Virus record (IMG/VR): IMGVR_UViG_3300008448_000024
Location: 30,275 to 94,274 of that record
Source: a virus
DNA: 64,000 nucleotides
Direction: 5' to 3' (one strand)
Under the pieces are notes generated by a model. It did no database searches. It saw nothing but the letters and a program-made list of their open reading frames with translations, and had not been told where the DNA came from. A program made the position numbers and the translations under genes. The number at the start of each line of letters is the position of its first letter. Position 1 is the first letter of the stretch. Of this stretch, positions 30,258 to 49,350 are shown in pieces.

Positions 30258-31199
30258 ATGGTAAATAAAGTAATAGCTGTATATCCAGGCAGATTCCAAC
30301 CTATGGGAAGACACCATGCCGCTACATTTAAGTGGCTTCAAGACAAGTTTGGTAAAGAAAACTCTTACATAGTGACTTCTGATAAGGTAGAAATGCCTAA
30401 AAGTCCATTAAACTTTTCAGAAAAAGCTACAATTGCGAGCAAATATGGATTTGGAGACAATATTGTTAGAGTTAAAAACCCATATAAAGCAGAAGAAGTA
30501 ACTTCAAAGTATGATCCAGAGACTACTGCCATTGTTTTTATGGTAGGTAAAAAAGATATGGAAGAGGATCCAAGATTTAAGATAGGCGTAAAGAAAGATG
30601 GAACGCCCGGATATTTTAGAAAGTATGAACAAGGTAAGAAAATGCAGCCTTTTACAAAACATGGTTATTTAATAGTAGCTCCTCACGTATCTCTTAAAAC
30701 ACCAGATGGACAAGAGATGAGCGGAACAAGTATACGTTCAGTGTTATCTAATCCTAAATCAACACCAGATGAATTTAAAAGTATATTTGGTTGGTATGAT
30801 CCAAAAATAGAGAAAATGATTAAATCTAAATTTCATATGAAAGAAGAAAGAATAAGTCTTATGGAATTATTAGAAGAAGATCTTAGTCATGGGCTAATAA
30901 CTTTAGCTATTATGGGTGGAGTAATATTAAGTGCTGATATTGGTACATGGATGGATGATCCTAATGCATCTATTCTTAAAGGATGGTTCAATAATTTAAA
31001 AACAGCGTGGAAAAAATTTAGATTCAAGAGAGAGGTGCTACCCATTATCAATAAATTAAAAGATGATCCAGAAATTCTAGATTTTTTAAAGCAACCTCAA
31101 AATATACAAATTGGTAATTGGAAAAAATTAATTGCTAAAAAGCTAAATGATAAAGAAATGCAGTATTTGGATAAAATCTATAAAAAGTATTTCCTTTAA
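30258..31199 (+). CDS. NMNAT/cytidylyltransferase-like enzyme with C-terminal extension after an internal (L)LEE site
   Basis: 313 residues. The N-terminal 190 residues form a nucleotidyltransferase: VYPGRFQPMGRHHAATF has the GRFQP...HH (HxGH-type) motif and EMSGTSIRSVL near 153 the C-terminal SGTxIR motif of NMNAT/NadR-type enzymes. Residues 199-209 (ISLMELLEEDL) mimic the N-terminal tag of other proteins, followed by a hydrophobic segment (LITLAIMGGVILSADI) and a charged helical domain. The enzyme part could make NAD or another nucleotide cofactor. Cleavage at the internal site would free the C-terminal domain; this is inference. Confidence 0.7.
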   Translation: MVNKVIAVYPGRFQPMGRHHAATFKWLQDKFGKENSYIVTSDKVEMPKSPLNFSEKATIASKYGFGDNIVRVKNPYKAEEVTSKYDPETTAIVFMVGKKDMEEDPRFKIGVKKDGTPGYFRKYEQGKKMQPFTKHGYLIVAPHVSLKTPDGQEMSGTSIRSVLSNPKSTPDEFKSIFGWYDPKIEKMIKSKFHMKEERISLMELLEEDLSHGLITLAIMGGVILSADIGTWMDDPNASILKGWFNNLKTAWKKFRFKREVLPIINKLKDDPEILDFLKQPQNIQIGNWKKLIAKKLNDKEMQYLDKIYKKYFL

Positions 31200-31215
31200 G
31201 ATATAAAATAAAAAT

Positions 31216-32268
31216 ATGAATTTAATTAAAATTTTATTAAGCGAAGGTGGAACTGGTGGTCATATGGCACATCCATTCGATTTACCTCAAGTAAATACTG
31301 GAAATGAGTTACTAAAGTCTTTTATATATGCAGTAAAATCATTACAAAAAAATCCCGCATCGGTTAAAATAGATGGAGTAAATGCATCAGTTAGGTTAGT
31401 TAAATTAGACGGAAAACAACAATTTGTTATGGATAGAGGCTCTAATAAGCCTTTAGACGTAAAAGGTATAACTAAAGCTGACTTAGAAGATAGATTTGCG
31501 CCTGGTCATGGTATGGTTAAGATTGGAGGAGAGGTATTAGACATATTTAATGAGTCTTTACCAAAAATAACCAAAGAGCTACAGGTTTTAGGTCTACTTA
31601 ATGATCCAAATATACTACTAAATATAGAATATGTATCAGGAAAGACTAATGTTCAAGATTATGGTAAAAACTTCTTAGCAATACATGGTCTTTTAAAAAT
31701 AGAGCAAGTTACTCCAACTAGAAGAGCTGCAAAAGAGACATCTTATGATAAAAAAGCTTTAGATTCGATGATAAAAAAGATGGGTCCTATAGCTAAGTCA
31801 AAGGATTTTGAAGTATTAGGATCTATACCAGCTACTTTTAAAAATGAGCCAAACTTTTCAAGTGAATTATCAAAATCTTACACAGTTAATTACACAAAAG
31901 ATAAAAAAGAGACTAAAAGTTTAAAAGATTGGTTAAAAACTACTAAAGTTCCTAAAGGCGTAAAAATAACCTTAGCAGATGGTAAAAAAGTAGATGCTTT
32001 AAGTAAGCAGGTATTTGTTGCTATAAAGAATGGAACGCCTTTAGATAAATTAGTAGCAAATAAAAACGAATACAAGAGTGCAATAGATGGATATGTTACC
32101 TATCTAGCAACAATGCAATTAGGCGATTCAGTATTAAAATCAATGGAAAGTCCACTTGGAGACGTAGATCAACAAGAGGGCATCGTAATAAGAGATAAAA
32201 GTATATATGATAAGCCCTTTAAGATAACGGGTTCATTTATTTTAAGAGGATTAGGTACATCATTTTAG
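31216..32268 (+). CDS. Tagged ATP-dependent polynucleotide ligase-like nucleotidyltransferase
   Basis: 350 residues. The N-terminus MNLIKILLSEGGTGG is a tag ending L-S-E before Gly. Motif I is ASVKIDGVNASVRLV (KxDG, adenylated Lys near residue 55). Later come LLNIEYVSGKT, motif IV QEGIVIRDKS (near 322), and motif V YDKPFKITGSF. These blocks fit the covalent nucleotidyltransferase core of DNA and RNA ligases. No OB or other extra domain is obvious, and whether the substrate is RNA or DNA cannot be told. The conserved opening HMAHPFDLP is shared by relatives in aquatic T4-like phages as far as I recall. Confidence 0.65.
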   Translation: MNLIKILLSEGGTGGHMAHPFDLPQVNTGNELLKSFIYAVKSLQKNPASVKIDGVNASVRLVKLDGKQQFVMDRGSNKPLDVKGITKADLEDRFAPGHGMVKIGGEVLDIFNESLPKITKELQVLGLLNDPNILLNIEYVSGKTNVQDYGKNFLAIHGLLKIEQVTPTRRAAKETSYDKKALDSMIKKMGPIAKSKDFEVLGSIPATFKNEPNFSSELSKSYTVNYTKDKKETKSLKDWLKTTKVPKGVKITLADGKKVDALSKQVFVAIKNGTPLDKLVANKNEYKSAIDGYVTYLATMQLGDSVLKSMESPLGDVDQQEGIVIRDKSIYDKPFKITGSFILRGLGTSF

Positions 32269-32274
32269 TAGTGT

Positions 32275-33180
32275 ATGGAAGATCAACAAAGAATATCGAT
32301 TTATACTGACTTTTTAAAGTATTGTTATAGAGAATTAGGCATAAAACAAGCGCCTAAGATAGATTTCACTACTGATAAGAAATTTGCAACTACTAATCAT
32401 AGTTTTGGTGGATATGTACCTTCTCAACAAAGTATTATTGTATATATAAACAATAGAAATATCGCTGATGTATTAAGAACATTGGCACATGAATTAGTAC
32501 ATCATAGCCAGAATGAAAATGGACTATTAACTCAAGAATCGGGTGAAACTGGGTCTGATATTGAGAATGAGGCTAACTCAAAAGCTGGAATTTTACTTAG
32601 AAATTACGGAAAAGTCAATCCTATCATATATGAAAGAGTAGATATGTCTATTCTTAGAGAGGATTTACAAAAATATGAGTTATATTGTGATATGGATGGA
32701 GTTCTTTGCGATTTTGATGCTCAATTTGATCACTACTTTGGTTTAAATCCAAAAGAATACATACAAGATCGAGGAGAAAAATCATTTGAGAATGCTATAG
32801 AAGAAGGTGGGATAGAATTTTGGTCTACTATGCCATGGTTTCCTAATAGTGAAAAACTTTGGAGCAGAATAGGTAAGTTTGGAGTAAACATACTATCAAG
32901 CCCTAGCAATTTTTCAGCTGCAAAAGAAGGAAAGCTGCTATGGATAAAGAAACACTTAAATCCACAACCTAAAAAAATAATATTTAAACAGACAGGGGAT
33001 AAGCATACCGTATTAGTAGGTAAATCTCAAGTAGAAATAGAGCATTCTGTATTAATAGATGATTATTCAGTTAATTTAAAACCTTGGATGGCGATGGGTG
33101 GTATAGGAATTAAACATGAAAATGAATCAAATACTTCTCACATACTACAAACATTAGATAAAAATGATAAAACTAACTAA
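32275..33180 (+). CDS. Zincin-like domain fused to HAD-type 5'-nucleotidase across an internal LRE site
   Basis: 301 residues. Residues 1-120 hold a HELVH zinc motif (72-76, in LAHELVHHSQNENG) with a possible third ligand in the following ENEAN helix. Residues 124-130 (MSILRED) mimic the tag with L-R-E. Residues 137-300 are a HAD phosphatase: YCDMDGVLCDFD for motif I, LSSPSN for motif II, and VLIDDYSVNLKPW for motif IV, as in 5'(3')-deoxyribonucleotidases. If the internal LRE is cut, two separate enzymes would result. The start codon follows the previous stop by six bases, and the 3' end overlaps the next start. Confidence 0.7.
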   Translation: MEDQQRISIYTDFLKYCYRELGIKQAPKIDFTTDKKFATTNHSFGGYVPSQQSIIVYINNRNIADVLRTLAHELVHHSQNENGLLTQESGETGSDIENEANSKAGILLRNYGKVNPIIYERVDMSILREDLQKYELYCDMDGVLCDFDAQFDHYFGLNPKEYIQDRGEKSFENAIEEGGIEFWSTMPWFPNSEKLWSRIGKFGVNILSSPSNFSAAKEGKLLWIKKHLNPQPKKIIFKQTGDKHTVLVGKSQVEIEHSVLIDDYSVNLKPWMAMGGIGIKHENESNTSHILQTLDKNDKTN

Positions 33181-33403
33181 AATATTAGAAGAAAGCAAAA
33201 AACTTGGATCAATTGAATATCCAGATGATCATAAGCCAGGCTTAAAAGTACCAACTGGCGGCTCAATGTGCGCTAATTGTGAATATTGGATAAAAGATGG
33301 TAATATGTGTAAAAATGAATACTGGTTAAAGTGGAATAAAGGAAAAGCTAAAATACCACATGCAGGTAATCAATACTGCTGCGACTGGTGGCATAAACAA
33401 TAA
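33164..33403 (+). CDS. Tagged small Cys-rich metal-binding protein
   Basis: 79 residues starting MIKLTKILEESKKLG, the tag with I-L-E and L-E-E sites. The body holds five Cys residues: MCANCEYW, MCKNEYW and QYCCDWWHK, an arrangement suggesting a zinc or iron-sulfur site. It overlaps the end of the preceding gene by 17 bases, so it is translated within the same run. Function unknown; small Cys-rich phage proteins may be structural or redox-active. Confidence 0.6.
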   Translation: MIKLTKILEESKKLGSIEYPDDHKPGLKVPTGGSMCANCEYWIKDGNMCKNEYWLKWNKGKAKIPHAGNQYCCDWWHKQ

Positions 33404-33418
33404 AAATAAAATACTGTT

Positions 33419-33991
33419 ATGAAAGAACAATCAAACTTAAAGAGAGAATTTAGTAAAAAAGACGTACAACGAATGCGCAATATCATAACAGGTAAAGCTG
33501 GTGATAGAACACAAGTACTTTCTGGTTATCAAAAACAAGAAATAGAACACAAAGAGGGAGATATTTGGGAAGAAAGCGGTAAAAAGTGGACTATAAAAAA
33601 TGGAATTAAGCAAACCGTAACTGTTATGGATCGATTTAAGAAGTTAGTAGTGCTTCCATTATGTTGTCCAAACTGTAATAAACCAATGAAACTTAATGAT
33701 TTGAATAAAAAAATGTATGCTATTCACTCTACATGCTTTGATTGCGTTTTAGAAAAAGAACAAAAAATAAAGTTAAGCGGTAATTGGGAAGAGTATACAA
33801 AAGGTGTACTATCTAATAATCATAACGTATATTTAGGTGATGTAGAACAAGCGTTAGAGGCATGGTACAATGAAAACGAGTCTTTTATTACTGAAGCTGG
33901 AGATGTAGAGACATGGAAAGGTGGTAATAAAAAAGAAATATATGATCAACTAAAAAAACAGTTAACCAAAATAAAGGAAGAAAACGGTTGA
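33419..33991 (+). CDS. Zinc-ribbon-like protein with C-terminal ITE site
   Basis: 190 residues. The N-terminus is basic and helical (SKKDVQRMRNIITGK), then IWEESGKKWTIKNGIKQTV and a CCPNC...CFDC pair (near 79-116) form a probable zinc ribbon. YNENESFITEAGDVETWKGG near residue 160 contains I-T-E before Ala, which looks like the sites elsewhere at N-termini. No N-terminal tag is present, so a processing site near the C-terminus would be unusual. The first residues are not hydrophobic. Confidence 0.55.
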   Translation: MKEQSNLKREFSKKDVQRMRNIITGKAGDRTQVLSGYQKQEIEHKEGDIWEESGKKWTIKNGIKQTVTVMDRFKKLVVLPLCCPNCNKPMKLNDLNKKMYAIHSTCFDCVLEKEQKIKLSGNWEEYTKGVLSNNHNVYLGDVEQALEAWYNENESFITEAGDVETWKGGNKKEIYDQLKKQLTKIKEENG

Positions 33992-33998
33992 TATTTAT
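33991..33998 (+). promoter_or_regulatory. ATATTTAT late-promoter-like box
   Basis: gATATTTATA overlaps the last base of the preceding stop codon and ends 16 bases before the ATG at 34015. Confidence 0.55.
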
Positions 33999-34014
33999 AG
34001 ATAAAACAATTATT

Positions 34015-34623
34015 ATGCCAGCGACAAGCGAACCGCAAAGAAAACTATTTGGTGCAGCATTATCAGCTAAACGTGGAGAATCAAAACCAGTGAGTAAAAA
34101 AGTATCAAATATAGCTAAGAATACTAGTGAAAAAGAACTAGAAAAAATGGCTTCGAAGCCAAAAAAAGAAGGAATGGACGATGGATCTATTTCTCAATTG
34201 TTTGTAGTTAAGAAACCTGATCAGGGCTGCACCAGAGACAATCTGGTAGCGCCAATTAATCCGCTTAATGGTATATCGGATTTACAGTTAAGTCCTGACC
34301 AAGTGCACGGGGTATATCCTGATGCTGATTCTGCAGGAATGATGGCTGAAAGAATGTGCCAAGAGTACGAAGAAGGTCAAAAAATGTTAGAAGAAAAGAA
34401 AGGTACTACTACAGAGAAGATAAAAAAAGCTATAGATAAGCTTGAGAAGAAGCGTAAAGAGCACATGGATGCGATGAAAGAAAATCCAAAGACTGCTAGT
34501 GAACATAAAACTGCGATTGCTGATTTAGCTACAAGAATCGATGATTATATAACAAAGTTAGAAAAGATCGAGAAGAGCAAAAAGGCTGAAGAAAAGAAAG
34601 AAGATAAAAAAGACAAAAAATGA
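34015..34623 (+). CDS. DUF3008-like protein
   Basis: 202 residues from MPATSEPQRKLFGAALSAKRGE. That start (P-A-T-S-E-x-Q-R-x-L-F-G-x-A-L-x-x-K-R-G-E) is typical of DUF3008-type phage proteins. A middle region follows (LNGISDLQLSPDQVHGVYPD), then a long charged helix to a Lys-rich end (KAEEKKEDKKDKK). The ATG at 34015 is used because the motif and the ATATTTAT box set it; an earlier in-frame ATG would place ten unrelated residues first. Its basic tail and helix suggest nucleic-acid association or packing, but that is inference. Confidence 0.65.
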   Translation: MPATSEPQRKLFGAALSAKRGESKPVSKKVSNIAKNTSEKELEKMASKPKKEGMDDGSISQLFVVKKPDQGCTRDNLVAPINPLNGISDLQLSPDQVHGVYPDADSAGMMAERMCQEYEEGQKMLEEKKGTTTEKIKKAIDKLEKKRKEHMDAMKENPKTASEHKTAIADLATRIDDYITKLEKIEKSKKAEEKKEDKKDKK

Positions 34624-34991
34624 TAAAGTTAACAGAGCTAATGAACGAATACGGTGATTTTAATGATCCAGTGCTCATGGCCACTAGAGCTTCTAAATTC
34701 AGTAGAGATAAAAAGCTTTCTGCTCAAAAGGCTGCCGCAAAAAAACGGATTTATGGTAAGAAAAGACAAGCATTGGAAGATAAATTAATCGACATAAATG
34801 ATGATATTAAGTCAGCAATACAACAAAGACATGCATTATTTATCGATATGGAAGAAGAAGCTGGTGAGAAAGGAGAAGATTGGTCAGACGAGGACGCGAA
34901 CAGATACGGACAACAGCTGAATGACATAGATGACACTATACAAAATCTAAAGTCGCTACGAAATAAAATAGAAACTAGACTAAACTATTAA
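34620..34991 (+). CDS. Tagged coiled-coil protein
   Basis: 123 residues beginning MIKLTELMNEYGDFNDPVLMA. The tag includes L-T-E and M-N-E. The rest (residues 20-120) is almost entirely charged coiled coil (KKRIYGKKRQALEDKLIDIN, DIDDTIQNLKSLRNKIET). The start overlaps the upstream stop by four bases. The DPVLMA...R block is one I associate with small phage proteins of unknown function. Confidence 0.6.
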   Translation: MIKLTELMNEYGDFNDPVLMATRASKFSRDKKLSAQKAAAKKRIYGKKRQALEDKLIDINDDIKSAIQQRHALFIDMEEEAGEKGEDWSDEDANRYGQQLNDIDDTIQNLKSLRNKIETRLNY

Positions 34992-35000
34992 AATAAATAA

Positions 35001-35369
35001 ATGAAACTAATAGACCTATTATCTGAATCTTTCGCAACAAATTCAAAATTAGCAAGTGCTGTTAAGTTTATGAAAAAAAATGCAGAATCTGCATATGAGG
35101 ATGAAAAAGAAATCCAAGCAGCTATGAAAGATGTAAAAGCATCAGGATTAACTTCGGACGATATATTTAAGTTTGCAAGTTTATTTCCAAGAGATAGTTT
35201 TAAAGTAGATGATATTCGTAGTGGCAAATTGGAGGCACAAATAAAACGAGTATATTTTAGTGGTGACGACCAATCAAAAGCATTGGAAAAAGCAAAAGCA
35301 CTAAAATCGTTTTTATTAGCATTTGATAAAAACCACGGTGGAGATAAAAATTGGTACAAAAGATATTAA
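35001..35369 (+). CDS. Tagged small helical protein
   Basis: 122 residues beginning MKLIDLLSESFATNSKLASA. The tag ends L-S-E before Ser. The body is helical and Lys/Asp-rich with the C-terminus FDKNHGGDKNWYKRY. No domain is recognised. Ten bases separate it from the upstream gene, and the next gene starts 12 bases downstream. Confidence 0.55.
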   Translation: MKLIDLLSESFATNSKLASAVKFMKKNAESAYEDEKEIQAAMKDVKASGLTSDDIFKFASLFPRDSFKVDDIRSGKLEAQIKRVYFSGDDQSKALEKAKALKSFLLAFDKNHGGDKNWYKRY

Positions 35370-35381
35370 AAAATAATTACA

Positions 35382-35753
35382 ATGGAAAACATAGGACTTT
35401 TATTAGGTACATTGATGCAAAGCAGAAATCAAGCCCATGTGTATCATTTGCAAGCAACAGGACCAGGTTCTCATGCAGCTCATTTAGCACTTCAAGCTTA
35501 TTATGAAGATATAGTGCCTTTAGTGGATGCTTTAGCAGAAGGTTGGCAAGGTCGTTATGGAATAATTACTGGATATAATATGGCGGGTACAATAAAAGAA
35601 GATGGCAACGCAGTTGCTTATTTTGAAACTCTTTGTAAGTTTGTTGAAGTAATAAGAAAACAAATACCCCAAGATTCATATATTCAAAATCAAGTGGATG
35701 AAGTAGTATCATTAATAGAAACTACAAAATATAAACTTATAAATTTACAATAA
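35382..35753 (+). CDS. DUF5856-like ferritin-fold protein
   Basis: 123 residues. LLGTLMQSRNQAHVYHLQAT then GSHAAHLALQAYYEDIVPLV, then DALAEGWQGRYGI, are recognisable as the DUF5856 family of T4-like phages, which appear related to Dps-like four-helix bundles (Q-A-H...H-L and Y-E-x-I placed like metal ligands). No tag is present. It is inside the tagged-gene run, so the bundle may be part of the head or a soluble protein; the role is unknown. Confidence 0.6.
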   Translation: MENIGLLLGTLMQSRNQAHVYHLQATGPGSHAAHLALQAYYEDIVPLVDALAEGWQGRYGIITGYNMAGTIKEDGNAVAYFETLCKFVEVIRKQIPQDSYIQNQVDEVVSLIETTKYKLINLQ

Positions 35754-36347
35754 GTGATAAGCATTATTAATACACTAAACGAAGATCTAAATGGAGAAAA
35801 TCCATGTTGGAGAGGGTATGAACCTATAGGAACTAAAGAGAAAGATGGAAAGACTGTTCCGAACTGTGTACCAATAGATGAACAAAATCAGCCTAATTTA
35901 CAACAAATAAAGAAAGGCATAGAAGTTGAGATGGAACATACCAGTGATAGGAAGACTGCACTAAAAATTGCCTTAGATCATTTAGCAGAAGATCCAAATT
36001 ATTACGATAAATTGCAAGCAGCTGGGTTAGAAGAGGAATTAAACGAAGGTGAATTCTGTTCTGAGTGCTTAAAAGAGTACATACAGCAAATGTCAAATCT
36101 AATGCTTGAAGCTGAATATAAAGGTAGAAAAGTGCCATTAGGTAAGCCTATGAAAGGTGACGTTAAAAAGTTTAAAGTATATGTAAAAAATAAAAAAGGT
36201 AAAGTTGTAAAAGTTAATTTTGGACAAAAAGGCGTAAAAATAAAAAAAAGTAACCCAAAAAGAAGAAAATCATTTAGAGCAAGGCATAAATGTCATACAG
36301 CTAAAGATAGAACAACACCTAGATATTGGAGTTGTCGTAAATGGTAA
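35754..36347 (+). CDS. Tagged DUF5872-like basic protein with internal site
   Basis: 197 residues from a GTG start that overlaps no gene. The first residues MISIINTLNEDLNGENPCWRG (with L-N-E) are tag-like. PCWRGYEPIGTKEKDGKTVP is followed by an acidic helical middle and QMSNLMLEAEYKG near 120, a second tag-like stretch. The C-terminus is very basic and Cys-containing (NPKRRKSFRARHKCHTAKDR, then PRYWSCRKW), as in small DNA-binding phage proteins. Splitting after the second site would free the basic domain for DNA binding; this is inference. Confidence 0.6.
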   Translation: MISIINTLNEDLNGENPCWRGYEPIGTKEKDGKTVPNCVPIDEQNQPNLQQIKKGIEVEMEHTSDRKTALKIALDHLAEDPNYYDKLQAAGLEEELNEGEFCSECLKEYIQQMSNLMLEAEYKGRKVPLGKPMKGDVKKFKVYVKNKKGKVVKVNFGQKGVKIKKSNPKRRKSFRARHKCHTAKDRTTPRYWSCRKW

Positions 36348-36358
36348 AAATATATAAC

Positions 36359-36970
36359 ATGAATAATAAACTTTTCGTAAAACACTTAATATTAGAGACA
36401 TTATCAGAAGCAGAAGTCGATAGCGAAGTAGACAAAGGTATGTCAGATGCGTATACTGCTCTAAAATCAAATTTATCTATTTTAGAAGGATATAAAGCTA
36501 AACAACCTAAAAAAGAAGGGCAAATAAATGAAGCTTTAGGCGCAATGGTTGCTAGTGGTTTATTAGCCGCACCTAAAATAATTGAATGGATAGCGAAATC
36601 TATAAATTATTTAGTTAAAACTTTTTCTAAAAAAGATGAAAGTCAAATCGCTAAATCTATTGAAAAGTTTGCACATAAGTGGGAAAAATTATATATAACA
36701 ATAATAAAAAAAGCAGTAAAATATACTGGATTTTTAGAAAATCTTTGGAAAAAAGAAAAACAAGTTGATGAAGAAAAGCTAGAACTTGTCGCAAAAGTAA
36801 TATTTGCATTAATACTAGCACTCGCAGCAGGTACTGCATTAAAAACAATATTATCACCAGCATCACCAGTGATTAAGGCAATAGAGGCTACATTAGGTGG
36901 AATTAAAGCTACTGAGATTATTGGAATTGCTAAAACAGTAGCTAATAAAATTGGTATTAAAGTAGTATAA
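36359..36970 (+). CDS. Tagged protein with hydrophobic helices
   Basis: 203 residues beginning MNNKLFVKHLILETLSEAEVD (tag with L-S-E before Ala). INEALGAMVASGLLAAPKII near 55 and a strongly hydrophobic span (VIFALILALAAGTALKTIL, near 148) suggest membrane interaction. The ATG at 36359 is chosen so that the tag is N-terminal; a start at 36341 would add six residues and overlap the previous stop. A packaged membrane-active protein could act on the host envelope at entry, but nothing confirms it. Confidence 0.55.
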   Translation: MNNKLFVKHLILETLSEAEVDSEVDKGMSDAYTALKSNLSILEGYKAKQPKKEGQINEALGAMVASGLLAAPKIIEWIAKSINYLVKTFSKKDESQIAKSIEKFAHKWEKLYITIIKKAVKYTGFLENLWKKEKQVDEEKLELVAKVIFALILALAAGTALKTILSPASPVIKAIEATLGGIKATEIIGIAKTVANKIGIKVV

Positions 36971-36982
36971 AATAATAAAAAT

Positions 36983-37240
36983 ATGAAACAAGAAATTAAT
37001 GAAACTAAAAGACTGCAAGAGTTAGCTGGCGTTGATAAACAATCTCAATTAAATGAAGTAATATCTCCAATACATAAAAATCGGCTTCGGCTTCCTACAT
37101 ATAAAAAAATTGATACGTATTTAAAATCTATTATTGGAAAACCATTTGATAAAAAAATGGCTGATGATATATCAATTATGGCTTTTGATTTAGCTAGAGA
37201 TTATTTTGAGAAGTATTCAAAAGATGGATTTCAAAAATAA
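36983..37240 (+). CDS. MKQ-tag protein 1 of three in tandem
   Basis: 85 residues. MKQEINETKRLQELAGVDKQ is followed by SQLNEV, a candidate L-N-E site at residues 23-25. The remainder is a short helical domain (KIDTYLKSIIGKPFDKKMAD, then MAFDLARDYFEKY). The leader and ATG form the 17-mer aaaataataaaaatatg (36969-36985), exactly repeated before the next two genes. The gene is one of four with this tag. Confidence 0.65.
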   Translation: MKQEINETKRLQELAGVDKQSQLNEVISPIHKNRLRLPTYKKIDTYLKSIIGKPFDKKMADDISIMAFDLARDYFEKYSKDGFQK

Positions 37241-37262
37241 AAATATACAAAATAATAAAAAT

Positions 37263-37568
37263 ATGAAGAAATATATTAATGAAGCAAAAAGAATGCAGCA
37301 ACTAGCAGGTATCTTAAAAGAAGGAGCTGATTTATCAAGATATGATAGTATGTCTGATGCTGATCTTATTAAATGGGCGAAACAAGATGGAATGGAAGAA
37401 TTTATTGTTATTGATGGAGAAGGAGGATTAGCAAATAGAGAAGAATTATTAAATGGTTTACTAGGAATAGAAGATACATATACATCAGATGAAGACGATG
37501 CTATTGATAGTATGTGGGATGATGAATTAGATCCAGCAGGCGGTAGAGGACCATTATCACATATATAA
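37263..37568 (+). CDS. MKK-tag protein 2 of three in tandem
   Basis: 101 residues beginning MKKYINEAKRMQQLAGILKE then GADLSRYDSMSD. The tag ends L-K-E before Gly. The body is strongly acidic and short (ADLIKWAKQDGMEEFIVIDG, EDTYTSDEDDAIDSMWDDEL), with an FIVIDGEGG strand-turn. The leader-plus-ATG 17-mer is at 37249-37265. The acidic body resembles a DNA mimic or scaffold-like peptide only in composition. An upstream ATG in this frame lies inside the preceding gene and is rejected. Confidence 0.65.
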   Translation: MKKYINEAKRMQQLAGILKEGADLSRYDSMSDADLIKWAKQDGMEEFIVIDGEGGLANREELLNGLLGIEDTYTSDEDDAIDSMWDDELDPAGGRGPLSHI

Positions 37569-37580
37569 AATAATAAAAAT

Positions 37581-37874
37581 ATGAAACAACAACTTAACGA
37601 AACAAAAAGAATGCAGCAATTAGCTGGTATTATTAAGGAAGATAGGAATATGGAAATGATGGGGGAGATGCATAGTGAAGAGGATTTTATGGCTCCAGTA
37701 ATAAATTATATAACCAAAAAATATTCAAGCTTAATTGCTAATAAAGATTACGATGCTTTAGGAGCTGCTATTGAAAAAGATTTTCCGTCGCTTCGTTCTG
37801 ATTTAGTTCTTCAAACTATATTTGGAAATGATACTCCTGAAGAGTTATCAACTCCTCCTAGCGGCTTTTTTTAG
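37581..37874 (+). CDS. MKQ-tag protein 3 of three in tandem
   Basis: 97 residues beginning MKQQLNETKRMQQLAGIIKE then DRNMEMMGEMHSEED. The tag ends I-K-E before Asp. The body is helical (FMAPVINYITKKYSSLIANK), ending PEELSTPPSGFF. The leader-plus-ATG 17-mer is at 37567-37583. The stop is followed by a 100-base spacer with no terminator seen. Confidence 0.65.
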   Translation: MKQQLNETKRMQQLAGIIKEDRNMEMMGEMHSEEDFMAPVINYITKKYSSLIANKDYDALGAAIEKDFPSLRSDLVLQTIFGNDTPEELSTPPSGFF

Positions 37875-37976
37875 TATTTCCTTTATCTGTATAAAATTTA
37901 AACGATAAACTAAGTTGCGATATTATTCACCAAAATCCATTTATGGAAGAAGACAGTAAAATCCAAAAAAGAATAA

Positions 37977-38186
37977 ATGACTTGGAGATCGAAATTCTTA
38001 AGCAATGTAGCTACAACGTGTCTGATGCTAGCGATGTTTTTCAACCCGCTTGGCTTCGACATATTATTCAAACTAGTAATGGACTTGACAGATTCTTACT
38101 TAATTACGGATTTACTTTTCTATTTCGCTGCGCTTTTATTTCTTGGATTATATTTCTTATTCAAAAAAGCATCTAATAGATCTTAG
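37977..38186 (+). CDS. Small two-span membrane protein
   Basis: 69 residues: MTWRSKFLSNVATTCLMLAM, FFNPLGFDILFKLVMD, LTDSYLITDLLFYFAALLFL, GLYFLFKKASNRS. Two hydrophobic spans with NPLGFD and a polar hinge between them match small inner-membrane phage proteins I have seen in aquatic T4-like genomes. Another frame begins at 37943 and overlaps it; the 37977 frame is favoured for its clean two-span layout and basic end. It may be a lysis or host-membrane protein. Confidence 0.6.
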   Translation: MTWRSKFLSNVATTCLMLAMFFNPLGFDILFKLVMDLTDSYLITDLLFYFAALLFLGLYFLFKKASNRS

Positions 38187-38187
38187 C

Positions 38188-38195
38188 ATATTTAT
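38188..38195 (+). promoter_or_regulatory. ATATTTAT late-promoter-like box
   Basis: cATATTTATA begins two bases after the previous stop and ends ten bases before the ATG at 38206. Confidence 0.55.
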
Positions 38196-38205
38196 ATAGA
38201 GTAGG

Positions 38206-38499
38206 ATGATTAAATTAATGACCATATTACAAGAGGAACCTTACGTAGATGTTAGTAAAACTAATATAGGTAAAACTACTACAGATTCAGGAATAACTAC
38301 AAAATTAACTGATATTGATCCAAGTACTGGAAAAATGGGTTGGGATGTAAGTTATGATGTAGATCCAAAAGAGGTGTATGAAAAGCTATCTGATCTTTAT
38401 AAATTTTTAGCTAACATAAATCCTGATAGTCCACTAATTGTAATAAGAGATCAAGTTAAAAAACTAAGAAATAAAACATCTAGATTAATAGTAAAATGA
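38206..38499 (+). CDS. Tagged small protein of unknown function
   Basis: 97 residues beginning MIKLMTILQEEPYVDVSKTN. The tag ends L-Q-E before Glu. The body is a mixed alpha/beta domain (GKMGWDVSYDVDPKEVYEKL, DLYKFLANINPD). It overlaps the next gene by four bases (ATGA). No family is recognised. Confidence 0.6.
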   Translation: MIKLMTILQEEPYVDVSKTNIGKTTTDSGITTKLTDIDPSTGKMGWDVSYDVDPKEVYEKLSDLYKFLANINPDSPLIVIRDQVKKLRNKTSRLIVK

Positions 38500-38957
38500 A
38501 AAATGTATCATTACAATCATTAGTAAGCTTACTAAGAGAAGAACAAGAGGCAGAATTATCAGAGAATCATAAAGTTGGAGATTTTGTTGTTCCTAATGTA
38601 GGTGCACATAAAGGGCTTAAACATAAAATCATCGCAATTAAAGATGATGGTAGCTACAATATACAACCAATTCTTAATAAAGGACAAAAAAATAAGTATA
38701 GATTAGGAGCAGCTAATGCAAAGCTTGATCAACTATCACCATATAAAGAGGAAATTAAAGAAGGCGCTGATCATGAAGTAGCGATGGCTATGAGCAGTCT
38801 AAAAGAAATAGTTAGTAATGCTTCCCAACTTATGGATAAATTAGGTGGAATGGAAAGAAACATTCCCGGCTGGATTCAAGATCACATAACTAACGCTGAA
38901 AATTTTATAGAGCAAGCAAATCAAGGATTTCATGAGTTAGACCACTCAGGTGAATAA
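38496..38957 (+). CDS. Tagged protein with conserved ADHEVAMA...NIPGWIQDHI domain
   Basis: 153 residues beginning MKNVSLQSLVSLLREEQEAE (tag with L-R-E, and L-S-E slightly later). A beta-rich KVGDFVVPNVGAHKG region follows, with IIAIKDDGSYNIQPI. The C-terminal helical domain has GADHEVAMAMSSLKEIVSNA, NIPGWIQDHITNAENFIEQA. That domain recurs in proteins of aquatic T4-like phages, where its role is unknown. The first domain may be a small KOW or SH3-like barrel. Confidence 0.6.
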   Translation: MKNVSLQSLVSLLREEQEAELSENHKVGDFVVPNVGAHKGLKHKIIAIKDDGSYNIQPILNKGQKNKYRLGAANAKLDQLSPYKEEIKEGADHEVAMAMSSLKEIVSNASQLMDKLGGMERNIPGWIQDHITNAENFIEQANQGFHELDHSGE

Positions 38958-38984
38958 AGTTATATAAAGTAAAAACACATAAGT

Positions 38985-41087
38985 ATGAATATGGACTCTT
39001 TAATACTAAAAAATATATTATTAAGAGAGATAGACGAAGAAGATGCTAAAAAAGAAGAAGATCAAAGTCAATCTCCATTTGAAAAAGATCCTATGGGATT
39101 TATATTAAAGAAGTATGTAACTTTGAATGAGTTATTAAGTGAATTAATGACTCCATCATTTAAAGAGTACTTAGATGCCATATTTATCGTTGCTCCAAAA
39201 CCAACAACATTTAAAATATTATTACATAACGGACAATACTTCTTTCTTACGTATTTAGAAAAGGCGTATCAAGCTACAATATCAGGTAAAAATTATTACC
39301 TAATGACTACAGGAGAGAAGCAATTATGTATGCAAGCTATTGCAAGATTGTTAAGATTTGGATCTCCATTAAAAACAAAAGGCCCTGAAGGATCTGAACA
39401 AGGTCCAGAAGCTGAAGATGCTGGAGAATCAACAACAGAACCAGCAGAAACTACACCAGAAGCGGGAGGTGAAGAAGAGACACTGGCAGAATCAGTAATA
39501 TTAAAGCATATATTAAAAAAGCTAGTATTAACAGAAGCCGCAACAGACATGAAAAGACCAAATACTGGTAATGAAATTTCTTTAAAAGAGGGATTAGTTT
39601 GTTTATTTTATGATGTTTTTAAAGACTCTTCTTTAGTTAAAGATATAGAAGAATTACACGCTATAGTTACAACAAAACAAGCGGCTGAGCAAATTGTAGA
39701 AGACGATATAAAAAAAATAGTTGATAAAATAGCTCAAGTATATAATAAAAATAAACAATACTATGGCGTAGGCAAATCTATGCCAGAGAATCTAGATTTA
39801 TATATTAAATATGTTTTCTTATCTAGACAAGAGGTAGACACTTTAACAAACGCTATATCAGCAGCCGCATCTATACATAAAGATATTTCTACAGAAGGTA
39901 GAATAATTAGGAATGAAGACTTTGATAAGATTAGACAAAAAGCTGTTTCATTAATAAAAGAACAGTATAATGTATCATTACAAGCTGATAACTGGTGTCC
40001 AGGCGACGTTTATTTAGTATTAAATCAATCAAGTATATCAAATTGTTTAAAAGCAGATACTGTTAATATAGGAAAATCAAGTTTAAATCATCAATTTGAA
40101 AAAGATGGAGATTTAATAGCTATATCTTTAAAAGAAGAAAAAGCACAAGCTGGAAAAGCTACAACTTTTGCTAATACTGTATTTAGTAATAGTTTTGATG
40201 CTGATGTAAATCCAGATGATAAATATGGTACATCAGATAATAAAGACTTAGCTAAAATATCAGCAAAAATAGCAAGATTTGAAGATTATTATTATGGTCC
40301 AAAAAGAGGTGGAAGACGATCTCAAAGTTATATAAATGCTATAACAAAAGATAAAAAATTGCATGGATCGGTTAATTCAATACTTCAAGCAGCAGGAAAA
40401 TCAAAAATAAAAACTACTAATATAAAAAGTGAATTTCAATCAGAAGATGCTTTTTATAAAGCAAATAAACAATTATTTGATGATATAGAATCTTCTATAA
40501 AATCTTTAAAAAATAAAATGACTGGGGGTGATTCTACAACGAAGGTAAAAAAGTCATTTATTACTAGTAGAGATAAATTTATAGATGATATAAAAAAATA
40601 TGAAATAGAAGTAAGCGCAGAAGATAATAATAAGTTTTCTAAAGAGATAGAAAAAGAAAATGAAGATTACATAAAAGTATTATCTATGAAGACTGCTACG
40701 TATGAATTAGCAAGTTTAATCATTGATAAATGGACAGATAAAAATGCTAAAATATCCCCAGCGTATAAAAAAATACAAGAGATTACAAATCCATTCGTTG
40801 CTTTAACTGCATTTGCTATAGCTGAAGCTGGTTTAAGTCCGAGTTTTTATAAAGTTATTGGTAGTTCTAAAACACTAATAGGACATACTGATTATTTCGA
40901 TGCAAAATCAGAAGTTGATATAGATTCTAGTAGTACAAAAATGACTTTAATAGATTCTCCAAAACAAGCTGGTTTTATGCTATCATATATTACTAAATTA
41001 GGTAAAAAAAATTATTCTACGAAATTGGTATTTAGGTTTTCTGGTTCTGAAATAAGAATAGAGGTACAAGAATTAAAAGCACAATAA
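38985..41087 (+). CDS. Large tagged protein with second internal tag (probable packaged protein)
   Basis: 700 residues. The N-terminus DSLILKNILLREIDEED offers L-R-E. After a helical part and an acidic low-complexity linker (EDAGESTTEPAETTPEAGGE, near 145), the sequence SVILKHILKKLVLTEAATD (about 168-186) repeats the tag with L-T-E. The C-terminal 500 residues are a separate, mostly helical domain containing the stretch YYYGPKRGGRRSQ and FWD-free charged helices; no enzyme motif is recognised. Cleavage at both sites would remove the tag and linker. It is the longest member of the tagged cluster. Confidence 0.6.
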   Translation: MNMDSLILKNILLREIDEEDAKKEEDQSQSPFEKDPMGFILKKYVTLNELLSELMTPSFKEYLDAIFIVAPKPTTFKILLHNGQYFFLTYLEKAYQATISGKNYYLMTTGEKQLCMQAIARLLRFGSPLKTKGPEGSEQGPEAEDAGESTTEPAETTPEAGGEEETLAESVILKHILKKLVLTEAATDMKRPNTGNEISLKEGLVCLFYDVFKDSSLVKDIEELHAIVTTKQAAEQIVEDDIKKIVDKIAQVYNKNKQYYGVGKSMPENLDLYIKYVFLSRQEVDTLTNAISAAASIHKDISTEGRIIRNEDFDKIRQKAVSLIKEQYNVSLQADNWCPGDVYLVLNQSSISNCLKADTVNIGKSSLNHQFEKDGDLIAISLKEEKAQAGKATTFANTVFSNSFDADVNPDDKYGTSDNKDLAKISAKIARFEDYYYGPKRGGRRSQSYINAITKDKKLHGSVNSILQAAGKSKIKTTNIKSEFQSEDAFYKANKQLFDDIESSIKSLKNKMTGGDSTTKVKKSFITSRDKFIDDIKKYEIEVSAEDNNKFSKEIEKENEDYIKVLSMKTATYELASLIIDKWTDKNAKISPAYKKIQEITNPFVALTAFAIAEAGLSPSFYKVIGSSKTLIGHTDYFDAKSEVDIDSSSTKMTLIDSPKQAGFMLSYITKLGKKNYSTKLVFRFSGSEIRIEVQELKAQ

Positions 41088-44053: not shown

Positions 44054-45976
44054 ATGGAACAAGAAAAAAAACCACAAGCTAATTTATTTAGCTCACTAAG
44101 ACGACTATTTTCTACTGACGTTATCATAAGAAATGAAGGCGGAGGTATGGTAAAAGTCATTGACACTGATAAAATACAAACATCAGGTGTAATACAGACT
44201 AATAGTATAATCGATAGATTTCATAAAGTATACACTACGTCTACTGCGTATGGTGTTAATATGAATCTTGCTCAAAACTATCAATCAGCGAGAGTTCAAA
44301 TATACGCAGACTATGATGCTATGGACACAGATGCAATTGTAGCATCTGCTTTAGATATTATATGTGATGAGTGTACATTAAAAAATGAACAAGGGGAAGT
44401 ATTACAAATTAGATCTTCTGATGAGAACATACAAAAGATTTTATACAACCTATATTATTCTATTTTAAATATAGAATTTTCTCTATGGTCATGGATACGT
44501 TACATGTGCAAATATGGAGATTTCTATCTTAAATTAGAAATAGCTGAAGGTTTTGGAGTATACAATGTAATACCATTCTCAGCGTATAATATAGTTAGAC
44601 AAGAGGGTTTTAATCCTGAAAACCCAAGTGAAGTTAGATTTAAGTACGATCCAAATGCAGCGATTGCATCAACTACTGGATATGGTTCTGCTTTTAATAA
44701 TCAAGATACTGGAATTTATTTTGATAATTTCGAAATTGCTCACTTTAGATTAGCAGGAGACGTAAATTATCTGCCTTATGGTAGATCTTACTTAGAACCT
44801 GCTAGAAAACTGTTTAAGCAATATACGCTTATCGAAGATGCGATGCTAATTCATAGAATAGCAAGAGCTCCAGAAAGACGTGTATTCTATGTTAATGTTG
44901 GAGCAATACCTCCTGCAGAAGTAGAAAATTACATTCAAAGGATGATGAATAAGATGAAAAAAACTCCTTTGATTGATCCAAATACTGGAAATTACAATCT
45001 AAAGTATAACGTACAAAATATGTTAGAGGATTTCGTAATACCAGTTAGAGGAAATGACCAAACTACAAAAATAGAAACCGCAAAAGGTTTAGACTATAAT
45101 GGTATCGAAGACGTTACTTATTTTAGAGAAAAGCTATTTGCTGCCCTTAAAGTGCCTAAAGCATTTATGGGATATGAAAAAGATTTAACTGGTAAAGCAA
45201 CATTAGCGGCTGAAGATATTAGATTTGCTAGAACTATTGAACGTATACAAAAAATCATTATATCTGAATTAACAAAGATAGGATTAGTACATTTATACGC
45301 GCATGGTTACACAAACGAATCAGCTGCTAATTTTACAATTTCGCTTACGAATCCATCTATCATATATGATCAAGAACGCGTTGCTTTATTTAAAGAAAAG
45401 ATTGAATTAGCTAAAGCTGCGATGGAAGGTCAATTATTACCTAAAGATTATATATATGATAAAGTATTCCACTTCTCTGAAGATCAATATAGTGAATTAG
45501 AAGATATGATCGTAGAAGACCAAAAGAGAGCATTTAGATTTAAACAAATTGCAGAAGAAGGAAATGATCCTTCTGAAACAGGTCAAGCATTTGGAACGCC
45601 TCACCAATTAGCTAGTTTATATGGAGGAAAAGGAGATATGTCATTAAACGTTCCTACTGGATATGATGAAACTAAGCCAAAAGATCAATATGAATCTCCA
45701 GGTCGACCTTCAACAAAAGCGTCTAAAATAAAAACTGATGATAGTCCATTTGGAAGAGATCCATTAGGTGCTTATGATATGAAAGCTAAACCAAATGCGG
45801 GTGAAGATGCTTTAAAGCCCACTTATAGAGGAGGACCATTAGCTATGGAAGGAACTATGAGTGAGTATATGAAAAATAAAAAGATGCTAGAGTCATTAAA
45901 TTTTAATAGAAAAATAAAATTGTATGAATCTCCAAGTGTTTTAGATGAAAAAAACATATTAGACGATTCTAAGTAA
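44054..45976 (+). CDS. Portal vertex protein (gp20)
   Basis: 640 residues. Conserved blocks: RVQIYADYDAMDTDAIVASA, ALDIICDECTLKN, LWSWIRYMCKYGDFYLKLEI, LPYGRSYLEPARKLFKQYTL, IARAPERRVFYVNVG, and NMLEDFVIPVRGNDQTTKIE, LKVPKAFMGYEKDLTGKATL. These are the gp20 portal hallmarks. Twelve copies form the DNA gate through which terminase packs the genome. It is longer than T4 gp20 (524), with a Pro/Gly/Lys-rich C-terminal extension after residue 500. Confidence 0.92.
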   Translation: MEQEKKPQANLFSSLRRLFSTDVIIRNEGGGMVKVIDTDKIQTSGVIQTNSIIDRFHKVYTTSTAYGVNMNLAQNYQSARVQIYADYDAMDTDAIVASALDIICDECTLKNEQGEVLQIRSSDENIQKILYNLYYSILNIEFSLWSWIRYMCKYGDFYLKLEIAEGFGVYNVIPFSAYNIVRQEGFNPENPSEVRFKYDPNAAIASTTGYGSAFNNQDTGIYFDNFEIAHFRLAGDVNYLPYGRSYLEPARKLFKQYTLIEDAMLIHRIARAPERRVFYVNVGAIPPAEVENYIQRMMNKMKKTPLIDPNTGNYNLKYNVQNMLEDFVIPVRGNDQTTKIETAKGLDYNGIEDVTYFREKLFAALKVPKAFMGYEKDLTGKATLAAEDIRFARTIERIQKIIISELTKIGLVHLYAHGYTNESAANFTISLTNPSIIYDQERVALFKEKIELAKAAMEGQLLPKDYIYDKVFHFSEDQYSELEDMIVEDQKRAFRFKQIAEEGNDPSETGQAFGTPHQLASLYGGKGDMSLNVPTGYDETKPKDQYESPGRPSTKASKIKTDDSPFGRDPLGAYDMKAKPNAGEDALKPTYRGGPLAMEGTMSEYMKNKKMLESLNFNRKIKLYESPSVLDEKNILDDSK

Positions 45977-46863: not shown

Positions 46864-47718
46864 ATGAATAAGACATTCAATAACCAATTTGCAACTATAA
46901 AACTAAGAGAAGAAATAGAAGAAGATAGTGTTACTGGATCTGGAGAAGCCTATAAGCCATCATTAAACGTTCCAGAAAAAAAGTATAAGGGCGTTTCAGA
47001 AAGAATCGATACGATTACCTTACAAGATTTTAAAAATGAATTTGAAAAGTTTAAAAGAGGTCTTCGTAGAAAAGATGATATTATCGCAGCATATGCTAAA
47101 CTAAGTTCATCTGATCAAGATTCTGCTAAAGGATATATGAGAGACATCAAAGAAAACAATATTATTGTAGAAGATGATTTATCAGGATATAAGCCAGTAA
47201 AAGGATTCAGAGCTGGTCATACTAAAGATACAGGCGGATTCCAATATAGTGATTTATGGAATGTTAATGAAGCAGATGAACGATATAACGTTGGAGATGA
47301 AGTTAGAGTAACAAAAAAAGGTTCCATTCAATATAATAAGATAGGAACAATAGATGCGATAGATGAAAAGTCTAATATGTACAAAATACAATTTAAAAAC
47401 GGGAAATCTGGAATGTATCACGAATCTGATTTAGTAAGACCCTCAGAGCCAAAAGGCCCACAAAAAATACTAAAAATAGACGAAAACTATAATCGCTTTA
47501 AAAAAGAAACTAGCGTTAGAAGTAAGGAGCAACAAATGCATGAAGCTATGAAGCTAGTTAGAAAAAAATTAGGAGAAGCAGAGAAGGTTATTGATTATGT
47601 AAAAACAATGAAAGAGGAGTTAGGATTGCAAGAGTATAAGAGTCATACAAATAGGTTGATGGAAAAATTACAAGTATCGATTAGTGAAATATACAAAAAA
47701 TACAAAAGCATAAAATAA
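46864..47718 (+). CDS. KOW-like protein of the head module with a LRE site
   Basis: 284 residues. The N-terminus has FATIKLREEIEED (L-R-E near residue 15). Then helical segments (FKNEFEKFKRGLRRKDDIIA) and a KOW/SH3-like domain RYNVGDEVRVTKKGSIQYNK, with IGTIDAIDEKSNMYKIQF near 156. The C-terminal 100 residues are coiled coil (EAMKLVRKKLGEAEKVIDYV). It sits in the interval where T4 has core proteins and may be cleaved in the prohead. Confidence 0.55.
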   Translation: MNKTFNNQFATIKLREEIEEDSVTGSGEAYKPSLNVPEKKYKGVSERIDTITLQDFKNEFEKFKRGLRRKDDIIAAYAKLSSSDQDSAKGYMRDIKENNIIVEDDLSGYKPVKGFRAGHTKDTGGFQYSDLWNVNEADERYNVGDEVRVTKKGSIQYNKIGTIDAIDEKSNMYKIQFKNGKSGMYHESDLVRPSEPKGPQKILKIDENYNRFKKETSVRSKEQQMHEAMKLVRKKLGEAEKVIDYVKTMKEELGLQEYKSHTNRLMEKLQVSISEIYKKYKSIK

Positions 47719-47859: not shown

Positions 47860-49350
47860 ATGATAAACATAACTAAACTCTATCAACAACTACAAGAAGG
47901 TAAAACTACCCGCGAATATTTTATTAGAGAAGCTCGTAGACAATTTCCGCAATTTATTAGTCCTGTAACTTCTTTTAATGATGCTATAAATATATTGAAA
48001 GGCAAACGACTAGTATCTGAGAATGAAACTAAAGAATTAACTAAAGAGGTTAGCGGCGCTATGTTTGATGCGCGTCTATATGAAGATAAAGAACCTTTAC
48101 AAGAGGCGCATAAGCTTGATACAGAACAAATATTAGATCGTATGTCTCCATACGCAGTTAAAAAAGGCATAGAGATAGAACTAAAAAAAGAAAAGACTTT
48201 TGATAATACTACTATTGATAAGGTTAAAACTCGTGTTGCTAAAAAATTAAAAAAGAATCCAAAAGCTTACGAAGATCTAGTAACATCAAATGCAAAAGAA
48301 GTTGATAAGACTGATAAAGATCTTGAAACTAAAGAACTTAAGCAAGAGTTAGTAGATAAGAAGAATGCTATGGTTAAACCCAAAGGATTCAAAGCAGAAA
48401 AAGCTAATACAAAAGCATCAAAGAAAGAGAATAAAAAAGGCAATCCAAAAGGTGTAAAGGTAATGCAAGATAAAGGCGTTACTGGAACTGAAAAGGTTAT
48501 AAAAGAAGATGTTAGATCATTTGATTATAAACACTTACCAACTAAACAATATAGTGCTAATCAAGTTAAAATGCAGGATATAGTTGATTTTGTTAAAAAA
48601 TATCCTGGTATTACTACAAAAGAATTAGCTTTAAAAGCTTATGGAACAGGCTATAATTATGGTAATAATAAAGATAAAGTATTACAAGGTGCTGTTTATA
48701 TGATAAATAGAGCTGTAAATGCAGGAAAAATCGTTAAAGTAAAGGATATTAAAGTAGGTTCAGCGCGCTTTACATATTTTACTCCAGAAGATTATCAAGA
48801 ATTTCTTCAAAAGAAAAAATCTATGAAAATAGGTAATATTTCTATAAAAGAAAACGTATTAAGCATATTAAAATCTTCTTTATTAGAGAATATGATGCAT
48901 ACTTACGTAAAAGGTGCAGAAGTACATACTCCTGATGGAATAGGTATAGTAGATGATGTCATAGGCGGAACTTTAACTGTAAAATTAGGAGATGGATCTT
49001 TAAAAGATTTTCAAATAAATGTAATCGATAAAGCTACTAGAGATACAAAATTCGATAGTATGAAAGGTTTTGGAGACACTTTACAAACAAAAAAAGAAGA
49101 AGTTAGCGAACCTAAAAAAGCTGAATTAACATCTGAAGAAAAACTTAAAAGCATTTTTGAGAGAATATCTAAAATAAAAGATAAAGAAAAAGCAAAAAAA
49201 ATGCTAGAAGCAATAGAACAAATTACAGGTAAAGATAATTTAGGCAATGATATAACTTTAGCTGTTACTCAACCCGGAAAAGGTCAATCAATGGTTAATA
49301 AACTAAAGTCTCAAGGCGCAAAATCAGTTAAGGTAAATAAAATACAATAA
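47860..49350 (+). CDS. Tagged, multi-part protein in the head module
   Basis: 496 residues. MINITKLYQQLQEGKTTREY is a tag ending L-Q-E before Gly. A Lys-rich low-complexity middle (about 165-215) is followed by a winged-helix-like stretch (GITTKELALKAYGTGYNYGN, near 250), then a second tag-like site IKENVLSILKSSLLENM near 330 with L-L-E. Then a KOW-like TPDGIGIVDDVIGGTLTVKL domain and a C-terminal motif LKSQGAKSVKVNKIQ. It ends on the first base of the protease gene. A head-core substrate of the protease is the likeliest role. Confidence 0.55.
   Translation: MINITKLYQQLQEGKTTREYFIREARRQFPQFISPVTSFNDAINILKGKRLVSENETKELTKEVSGAMFDARLYEDKEPLQEAHKLDTEQILDRMSPYAVKKGIEIELKKEKTFDNTTIDKVKTRVAKKLKKNPKAYEDLVTSNAKEVDKTDKDLETKELKQELVDKKNAMVKPKGFKAEKANTKASKKENKKGNPKGVKVMQDKGVTGTEKVIKEDVRSFDYKHLPTKQYSANQVKMQDIVDFVKKYPGITTKELALKAYGTGYNYGNNKDKVLQGAVYMINRAVNAGKIVKVKDIKVGSARFTYFTPEDYQEFLQKKKSMKIGNISIKENVLSILKSSLLENMMHTYVKGAEVHTPDGIGIVDDVIGGTLTVKLGDGSLKDFQINVIDKATRDTKFDSMKGFGDTLQTKKEEVSEPKKAELTSEEKLKSIFERISKIKDKEKAKKMLEAIEQITGKDNLGNDITLAVTQPGKGQSMVNKLKSQGAKSVKVNKIQ

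Follow-up and report, generated by a model that had tools for sequence, protein, structure and literature searches.

Tagged genes in the window

The window examined here is a stretch of 64,000 nucleotides (positions 30,275 to 94,274) of the viral record IMGVR_UViG_3300008448_000024, contained in a 94-kb IMG/VR fragment, and our subject is a set of short N-terminal sequences, or tags, that open a series of its proteins and end in (L/I)xE or, with other hydrophobic residues (h) admitted, in hxE. An earlier note on this DNA had listed 19 such N-terminal (L/I)xE sites and read them as T4-like capsid-targeting tags on packaged proteins; all 19 exist at or next to the positions it listed, but three of the proteins (46864, 47860, and 51210), while their sites are real, are head assembly or shell proteins rather than tagged cargo. 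Behind the plain (L/I)xE, the candidate tags fall by pattern into three specific families—class A (MIKLxxLLKE, ~10 residues), class B (MKxQINExKRMQxLAGIIxE, ~20 residues), and class C (MENFDLKKFLVENKLTxNSxxLxE, ~24 residues). The tagged genes are as follows:

2171..2224, plus strand: class C-type tag MKDFDLVKFVRNNQLLNE of an 82-residue protein, with an N-terminus common to relatives (G008:46057, G002:108946)
6588..6617, plus strand: class A tag MINLTDLLIE of a 102-residue protein
7126..7185, plus strand: class B tag MKQIINEAKRLQKLAGILTE of a 129-residue protein
8392..8433, minus strand: probable class A-like tag MINLINILKSVLLE of a 142-residue protein
31216..31245, plus strand: class A tag MNLIKILLSE of an enzyme whose predicted mature form begins GGTGGHMAHPFD
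33164..33193, plus strand: class A tag MIKLTKILEE of a 79-residue cysteine-rich protein
34620..34649, plus strand: class A tag MIKLTELMNE of a 123-residue protein
35001..35027, plus strand: class A tag MKLIDLLSE of a 122-residue protein
35754..35783, plus strand: class A tag MISIINTLNE (GTG start) of a DUF5661-containing protein
36359..36409, plus strand: long class A-like tag MNNKLFVKHLILETLSE
36983..37057, plus strand: class B tag MKQEINETKRLQELAGVDKQSQLNE
37263..37322, plus strand: class B tag MKKYINEAKRMQQLAGILKE
37581..37640, plus strand: class B tag MKQQLNETKRMQQLAGIIKE
38206..38235, plus strand: class A tag MIKLMTILQE
38496..38540, plus strand: tag-like N-terminus MKNVSLQSLVSLLRE
38985..39029, plus strand: tag-like N-terminus MNMDSLILKNILLRE of a 700-residue protein

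Gene starts were taken from one caller, built on a codon and start-site/upstream model; GTG is the start codon at 2171 as well as at 35754, and the 33164 gene overlaps its upstream neighbor by 17 bases. Because a 179.6-kb contig, G001, has a terminase identical to the window's and the same genes through the compared region, we took the two to be one phage, with G001 the longer copy. By capsid protein, the nearest named phages are Flavobacterium phage immuto (vB_FspM_immuto_2-6A; 51% identity) and Microcystis phage Mel-JY01 (49%), and the host group, to judge from immuto, is probably Bacteroidota.

Enrichment of whole tags over chance

In principle, the tags could be a product of chance, since many proteins open with amphipathic helices and (L/I)xE is only three residues long. 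With expectations obtained by shuffling the first 30 residues, the bare motif at residues 4–24 was found in 11 of the 16 genes of at least 75 amino acids in the block at 30258–41087 (4.5 expected), in 65 of 202 proteins of G001 (43.3 expected, z 4.1), and in 55 of 180 proteins of immuto (40.2 expected). The N-terminal enrichment proposed earlier is therefore present, in every relative tested, but moderate, and the bare motif's excess of only ~1.5-fold within whole genomes speaks for chance. The signal is carried by the whole tag instead: the three-family pattern set matched 14 proteins in G001 against 1.4 after shuffling, a roughly 10-fold excess over shuffled N-termini in the window's own genome that takes in two non-cargo candidates (the capsid protein and a tail-region protein), 15 against 2.1 in immuto, and 8 against 0.5 in G005. 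No excess was observed for the tag patterns in our negative control, the Bacteroides phage crAss001 (1 against 1.1 expected), whose annotation does not mark its capsid genes as T4-like and in which a Peptidase_S77 gene was not searched for. The matches in G001 were also concentrated, with 13 among the 75 genes of the part shared with the window and 1 among the other 152 (p = 2.7e-6). The tail-region protein (19237-19683, MSKLDSFRKLIREE...) fits the class A pattern; we did not count it as tagged because it is conserved in at least seven relatives.

A comparison of methionines gave a similar picture. Of 975 proteins, 30 had the pattern M..h..hh.E at the start methionine, versus 13 of 4187 internal methionines (p = 4e-13), and when only the hydrophobic positions were fixed (M..h..hh.), residue 10 was glutamate in 30 of the 81 start-methionine cases and aspartate in 2. 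Together with the near-confinement of class B and C cores to the starts of open reading frames (ORFs), described below, these excesses leave chance with almost no probability as an explanation.

Three tag families across environmental phages

Patterns for the three families were run at the DNA level over 2.9 million viral contigs from IMG/VR, which are redundant; the counts below are among the matches listed, and within these sets the searched pattern positions are conserved by construction. Tags were spread over hundreds of environmental phage contigs. For class B, 120 of 122 matches begin at most 13 residues from the closest ATG in frame, a count that falls to 116 when the most distant upstream ATG is used, and for class C, 123 of 142 begin at most 6 residues from the nearest ATG; since neither pattern contains a start codon, this N-terminal placement is a result and not an assumption. 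The class A pattern itself includes ATG, and in 116 of 128 matches this was the first ATG of the ORF, compared with 4 of 55 for a scrambled pattern. The class B core pattern had zero matches in 84,980 bacterial and archaeal genomes.

Conservation of class B acts on the protein, given that the 102 distinct tags listed are encoded by 94 different 36-nucleotide cores. Their arginine is invariant although the search pattern also permitted serine, and the glutamate of INE, outside the searched core on its upstream side, shows conservation of at least 90%. A tblastn search with a 26-residue class B tag against named phages returned no match, though immuto (NC_055915.1) carries such a tag, and queries this short are therefore unsuitable. 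Classes A, B, and C all occur in immuto, including on a nucleotidase; separately, its gene at 117631-118632, annotated as cob(I)alamin adenosyltransferase, opens with a class C-like tag (MADNFNLRSFLTENKLTKNAQLLKE).

Unrelated bodies and exchanged tags

The earlier description of the tagged proteins as otherwise unrelated holds up well: 271 proteins of classes A and B fell into 148 body clusters, 91 of them singletons, and the same putative tag sits on unrelated, diverse bodies. The reverse pattern is equally plain in the alignments, where homologous bodies bear different tags and the tags are, to that extent, exchangeable. The body of the 36359 protein, for example, has its class A-like tag in the window, a class B tag in four relatives (L189, L149, L135, and L020), and a class C tag in another (L217). 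The cysteine-rich 33164 protein appears with at least four different tags among its relatives—MISLIQILKE, MYSLLELLKLQE, and MKQFDITDYLLNQQLKE among them—and a homologue of the 38206 protein (L130) begins MKKSDLKKIVREIAE, with a related body in L205 standing without a tag. The C-terminal domain (EGxDHEVxMA) of the 38496 protein recurs behind different tags and once alone. For the minus-strand protein at 8392..8433, no homologue with an exchanged tag was found. Homology between bodies with exchanged tags usually starts at the glutamate or a few residues beyond it.

Candidate cut sites between fused domains

Sites resembling the tags also lie inside several proteins of the window:

30258..31199, plus strand: HIGH-type nucleotidyltransferase (weak CTP_transf_like match) with no N-terminal tag
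30852-30878, plus strand: internal tag-like site ISLMELLE(E) in this nucleotidyltransferase
32638..32661, plus strand: VDMSILRE, a tag-like internal cut site separating a zincin-like metallopeptidase part from an NT5C-like nucleotidase part
36099..36110, plus strand: candidate internal cut site LMLE, followed by a basic AEYKGR domain at 36111-36344
39492..39536, plus strand: internal tag-like cut site SVILKHILKKLVLTE in the 700-residue protein 38985 (residues 170-184)

The AEYKGR domain that ends the 35754 protein is preceded by hxE in 38 of 40 distinct junctions against a 2% background, with L, I, V, or M at position -3 in 95%, a variable position -2, glutamate at -1 in 97%, and alanine, glycine, or serine at +1. 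The start of the ligase-like domain (GGxxGHMxHPFD) has hxE, in the form LxE, immediately before it in 9 of 10 distinct junctions, again against a 2% background; this enzyme stands alone with its own tag in the window but forms the C-terminal part of fusions of ~450 to 1,100 residues in relatives. One such fusion, a 553-residue ORF (L168), joins a nucleotidyltransferase of the 30258 type to the ligase that stands separate in the window, and distant relatives of the same nucleotidyltransferase (L238, L252) have an N-terminal tag just before the homologous start. Similarly, the nucleotidase that ends the 32275 protein follows ILRE in the window and occurs in L264, L307, and immuto as a free protein that opens with a tag, and the N-terminal domain of the 700-residue protein is a free protein of 150-160 residues in many relatives (the predicted structure of its C-terminal part, with a predicted local distance difference test score, or pLDDT, of 47, was not used). 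The occurrence of hxE at the boundaries of fused domains suggests that the head protease processes polyproteins in addition to single tags, and it probably cuts them at these junctions.

Small class B-tagged proteins in two relatives (L100:3793-4251 and L189) contain a hydrophobic LAGLITLxTxGG segment, and a similar segment follows the internal site at the end of the window's nucleotidyltransferase (30258, residues 208-230); proteins bearing it are possibly membrane-active.

Head genes and the prohead protease

By homology, the head genes of this phage—terminase, portal, prohead protease, and capsid protein—are T4-like, and those that bear on the tags lie downstream of the tagged block:

44054..45976, plus strand: portal protein, gp20 (Pfam Portal_T4, E 4e-71)
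46864..47718, plus strand: probable head core protein with N-terminal FNNQFATIKLRE, a conserved C-terminal 80 residues, and a variable middle
47860..49350, plus strand: probable head core protein with start MINITKLYQQLQE, conserved in close relatives
49350..49982, plus strand: prohead protease, homologue of gp21 (Pfam Peptidase_S77, E 6e-23)
50158..51174, plus strand: scaffold protein, gp22-like by position between the protease and capsid genes, with 19 internal (L/I)xE sites
51210..52847, plus strand: major capsid protein gp23 with tag-like N-terminus MANLVQSLLSE (Pfam Gp23, E 3e-76)
51384-51395, plus strand: likely capsid maturation site LVVE (residues 59-62), conserved in 16 aligned sequences

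The protease gene, already recognized as a gp21 homologue in the earlier note, keeps the GELDHP histidine and GISSR serine of T4 in a comparison of 24 sequences and has its own conserved N-terminal site, LLIxxSxFxPxxxLxE. Among relatives, the middle of the 46864-47718 protein varies in length and content, giving whole proteins of 284 to 503 residues. Upstream of the window, at approximately -18000 to -1500 in its coordinates (G000:C1), convincing genes are scarce and short spurious ORFs abound; this stretch may hold transfer RNAs, of which none were found inside the window.

These genes bear on the possibility that the tags address their proteins elsewhere, such as to the membrane, the replication complex, or the tail, with a glutamate that has nothing to do with proteolysis. 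Classes B and C do not share the sequence of class A and might bind a different partner, and the head location of the tagged proteins is something that we infer. On the other hand, glutamate is strongly preferred over aspartate at the presumed cut position (30 versus 2), hxE recurs both at junctions between internal domains and in the capsid and protease N-terminal arms, and classes A, B, and C replace one another on one body; we consider such an address very unlikely.

Enzymes among the tagged proteins

One tagged enzyme of the window can be described in some detail:

31246..32268, plus strand: ligase-like covalent nucleotidyltransferase with K51-x-D-G, EGxV, and K336 invariant in the alignment

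The ligase-like enzyme named in the earlier note has a signature of KxDG, EGxV, and C-terminal lysine that is typical of covalent nucleotidyltransferases, but its fold matches to DNA and RNA ligases in the PDB are weak (E 0.02-0.06, low template modeling score). In its predicted structure (mean pLDDT 84.5), residues 1-10, corresponding to the tag, are disordered (pLDDT ~24). For the GNAT-like enzyme proposed alongside it, no Pfam support was found. Nearly all tagged bodies match no known family, and PHROGs yielded almost no function; in this sense, the tags offer hundreds of uncharacterized proteins a first testable function. Exceptions among the tagged representatives in relatives, all identified with Pfam, are two ART-PolyVal ADP-ribosyltransferases (E 1e-27 and 2e-10), an RNase_T exonuclease, and a P-loop protein joined to a nucleotidase. 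An ADP-ribosyltransferase makes sense as cargo, given that T4 packages its own, Alt (PMC9026906). Finally, a class B-tagged protein on the 174-kb contig G010 (L133:584-1144) has Acb1 as its best Pfam match, at 26.8 bits against a cut-off of 27, and is safely described only as 2H phosphoesterase-like; comparison with Acb1, which acts against the cyclic-oligonucleotide-based antiphage signaling system, makes it a possible head-delivered counter-defence enzyme.

That enzymes are present at all matters for a second alternative, namely that the tags are scaffold-binding assembly anchors and the tagged proteins are parts of the core or scaffold that are degraded and removed rather than delivered. 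T4 gp22, gp67, and gp68 are likewise cut to fragments (PMC5694885), and some of the tagged proteins are small and acidic, both as this model would have it. However, the bodies include ADP-ribosyltransferases, an exonuclease, a ligase-like enzyme, a nucleotidase, and a 2H phosphoesterase-like protein, and they are highly variable between relatives, unlike core proteins; we therefore regard the anchor model as very unlikely.

A model for protein delivery

The tags are very probably T4-type capsid-targeting propeptides, in a much enlarged variant of the known mechanism. This reading, put forward in the earlier note, is the best supported by the combination of the protease, the agreement with what the T4 IPIII tag requires, and exchanged tags with homology starting near the glutamate. 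From the parallels with T4 we infer core binding, cleavage, packaging, and injection: a short hydrophobic N-terminal helix of class A, B, or C would bind a component of the prohead core, by which the tagged protein would be incorporated as the immature head forms; the gp21-type protease would then cut after the glutamate of hxE, freeing the mature protein and shedding the tag; and the mature protein would remain with the DNA and be ejected into the host at infection. Where hxE lies between domains, several mature proteins could be delivered from one reading frame.

Several observations weigh against capsid targeting. In some tag-exchange pairs, homology begins several residues past the glutamate, and some bodies also occur untagged (the nucleotidyltransferase at 30258, and others in L055 and L205). 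Most T4 tags are shorter than classes B and C, whose sequences could not be related to any known capsid-targeting sequence. All 10 class B contigs of at least 79 kb carried Peptidase_S77, as did 6 of 7 class A contigs exceeding 100 kb, but the protease was also present in 5 of the 9 large contigs that the scrambled pattern hit, making co-occurrence weak evidence. In one class A contig of 126 kb no protease was detectable.

We put at about even the chances of a broader proposal—that capsid targeting here amounts to a general code for protein delivery in a major aquatic phage lineage, in which three interchangeable labels and interdomain cut sites allow at least ten proteins per phage, host-modifying and counter-defence enzymes included, to enter the head as precursors or polyproteins, mature there, and be injected. 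Proteins that enter the host with phage DNA are known for only a few model phages. The tag-bearing relatives form a large group of phages in lakes and seas. Should the tags act as proposed, the proteins that this large uncultured group injects could be read from three N-terminal patterns; immuto, which is cultured on Flavobacterium LMO8, bears all three, and the tags may find use as signals for packaging proteins for delivery in systems other than T4. Relative to the earlier note, the putative families, their spread over hundreds of environmental contigs, and the candidate cut sites between fused domains are additions. We found the tags unreported in the searchable literature, which leaves most subscription journals outside its coverage, and 'capsid targeting' was never joined there with metagenomes or cyanophages; within that literature, we found no description of three tag families shared by many phages or of such cut sites separating fused enzyme domains.

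Comparison with known systems

In T4, the 10 N-terminal residues of IPIII are enough for packaging, with residues 4 and 7 directing targeting and residues 8 and 10 processing, and aspartate at position 10 permits targeting while blocking processing (PMC9026906). IPII and IPIII both open with MKTYQEFIAE (T4 record). Class A resembles this capsid-targeting sequence in length and geometry, being hydrophobic at 4, 7, and 8 with glutamate at 10, and it is the only class to which the IPIII residue requirements, including glutamate rather than aspartate at 10, apply. The T4 DNA end protector gp2 (NC_000866 gene 2, 76061-76885) begins MAIFQIINES, which fits the class A pattern; we know of no report of gp2 being cut. 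More broadly, the T4 capsid-targeting sequences cut by gp21 (IPI, IPII, IPIII, and the Alt propeptide) share with the present tags a length of 10-19 residues, small internal proteins as bearers, a gp21-type protease, and, in the window's relatives, an ADP-ribosyltransferase among the cargo, and the capsid hxE at residues 59-62 is close to the 65-residue propeptide of T4 gp23.

Propeptides cut by the prohead proteases of phiKZ-like phages and SPN3US have the motif A-x-E or S/A/G-x-E (PMC5694885). Like the tags, these systems feature cleavage after glutamate and packaged, ejected proteins, and two of their paralogues have identical N-termini; unlike the tags, their propeptides are mostly long and not common to unrelated proteins, and the cut motif differs. 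Closer to the window is immuto, with its related capsid, its three classes, and its tagged nucleotidase, in an annotation silent on tags. Compared with T4, the window's phage has ~15 tagged proteins rather than about four and three tag families, a single family extends over very many unrelated bodies, internal sites divide fused enzymes, and the host group, judging from immuto, is probably Bacteroidota.

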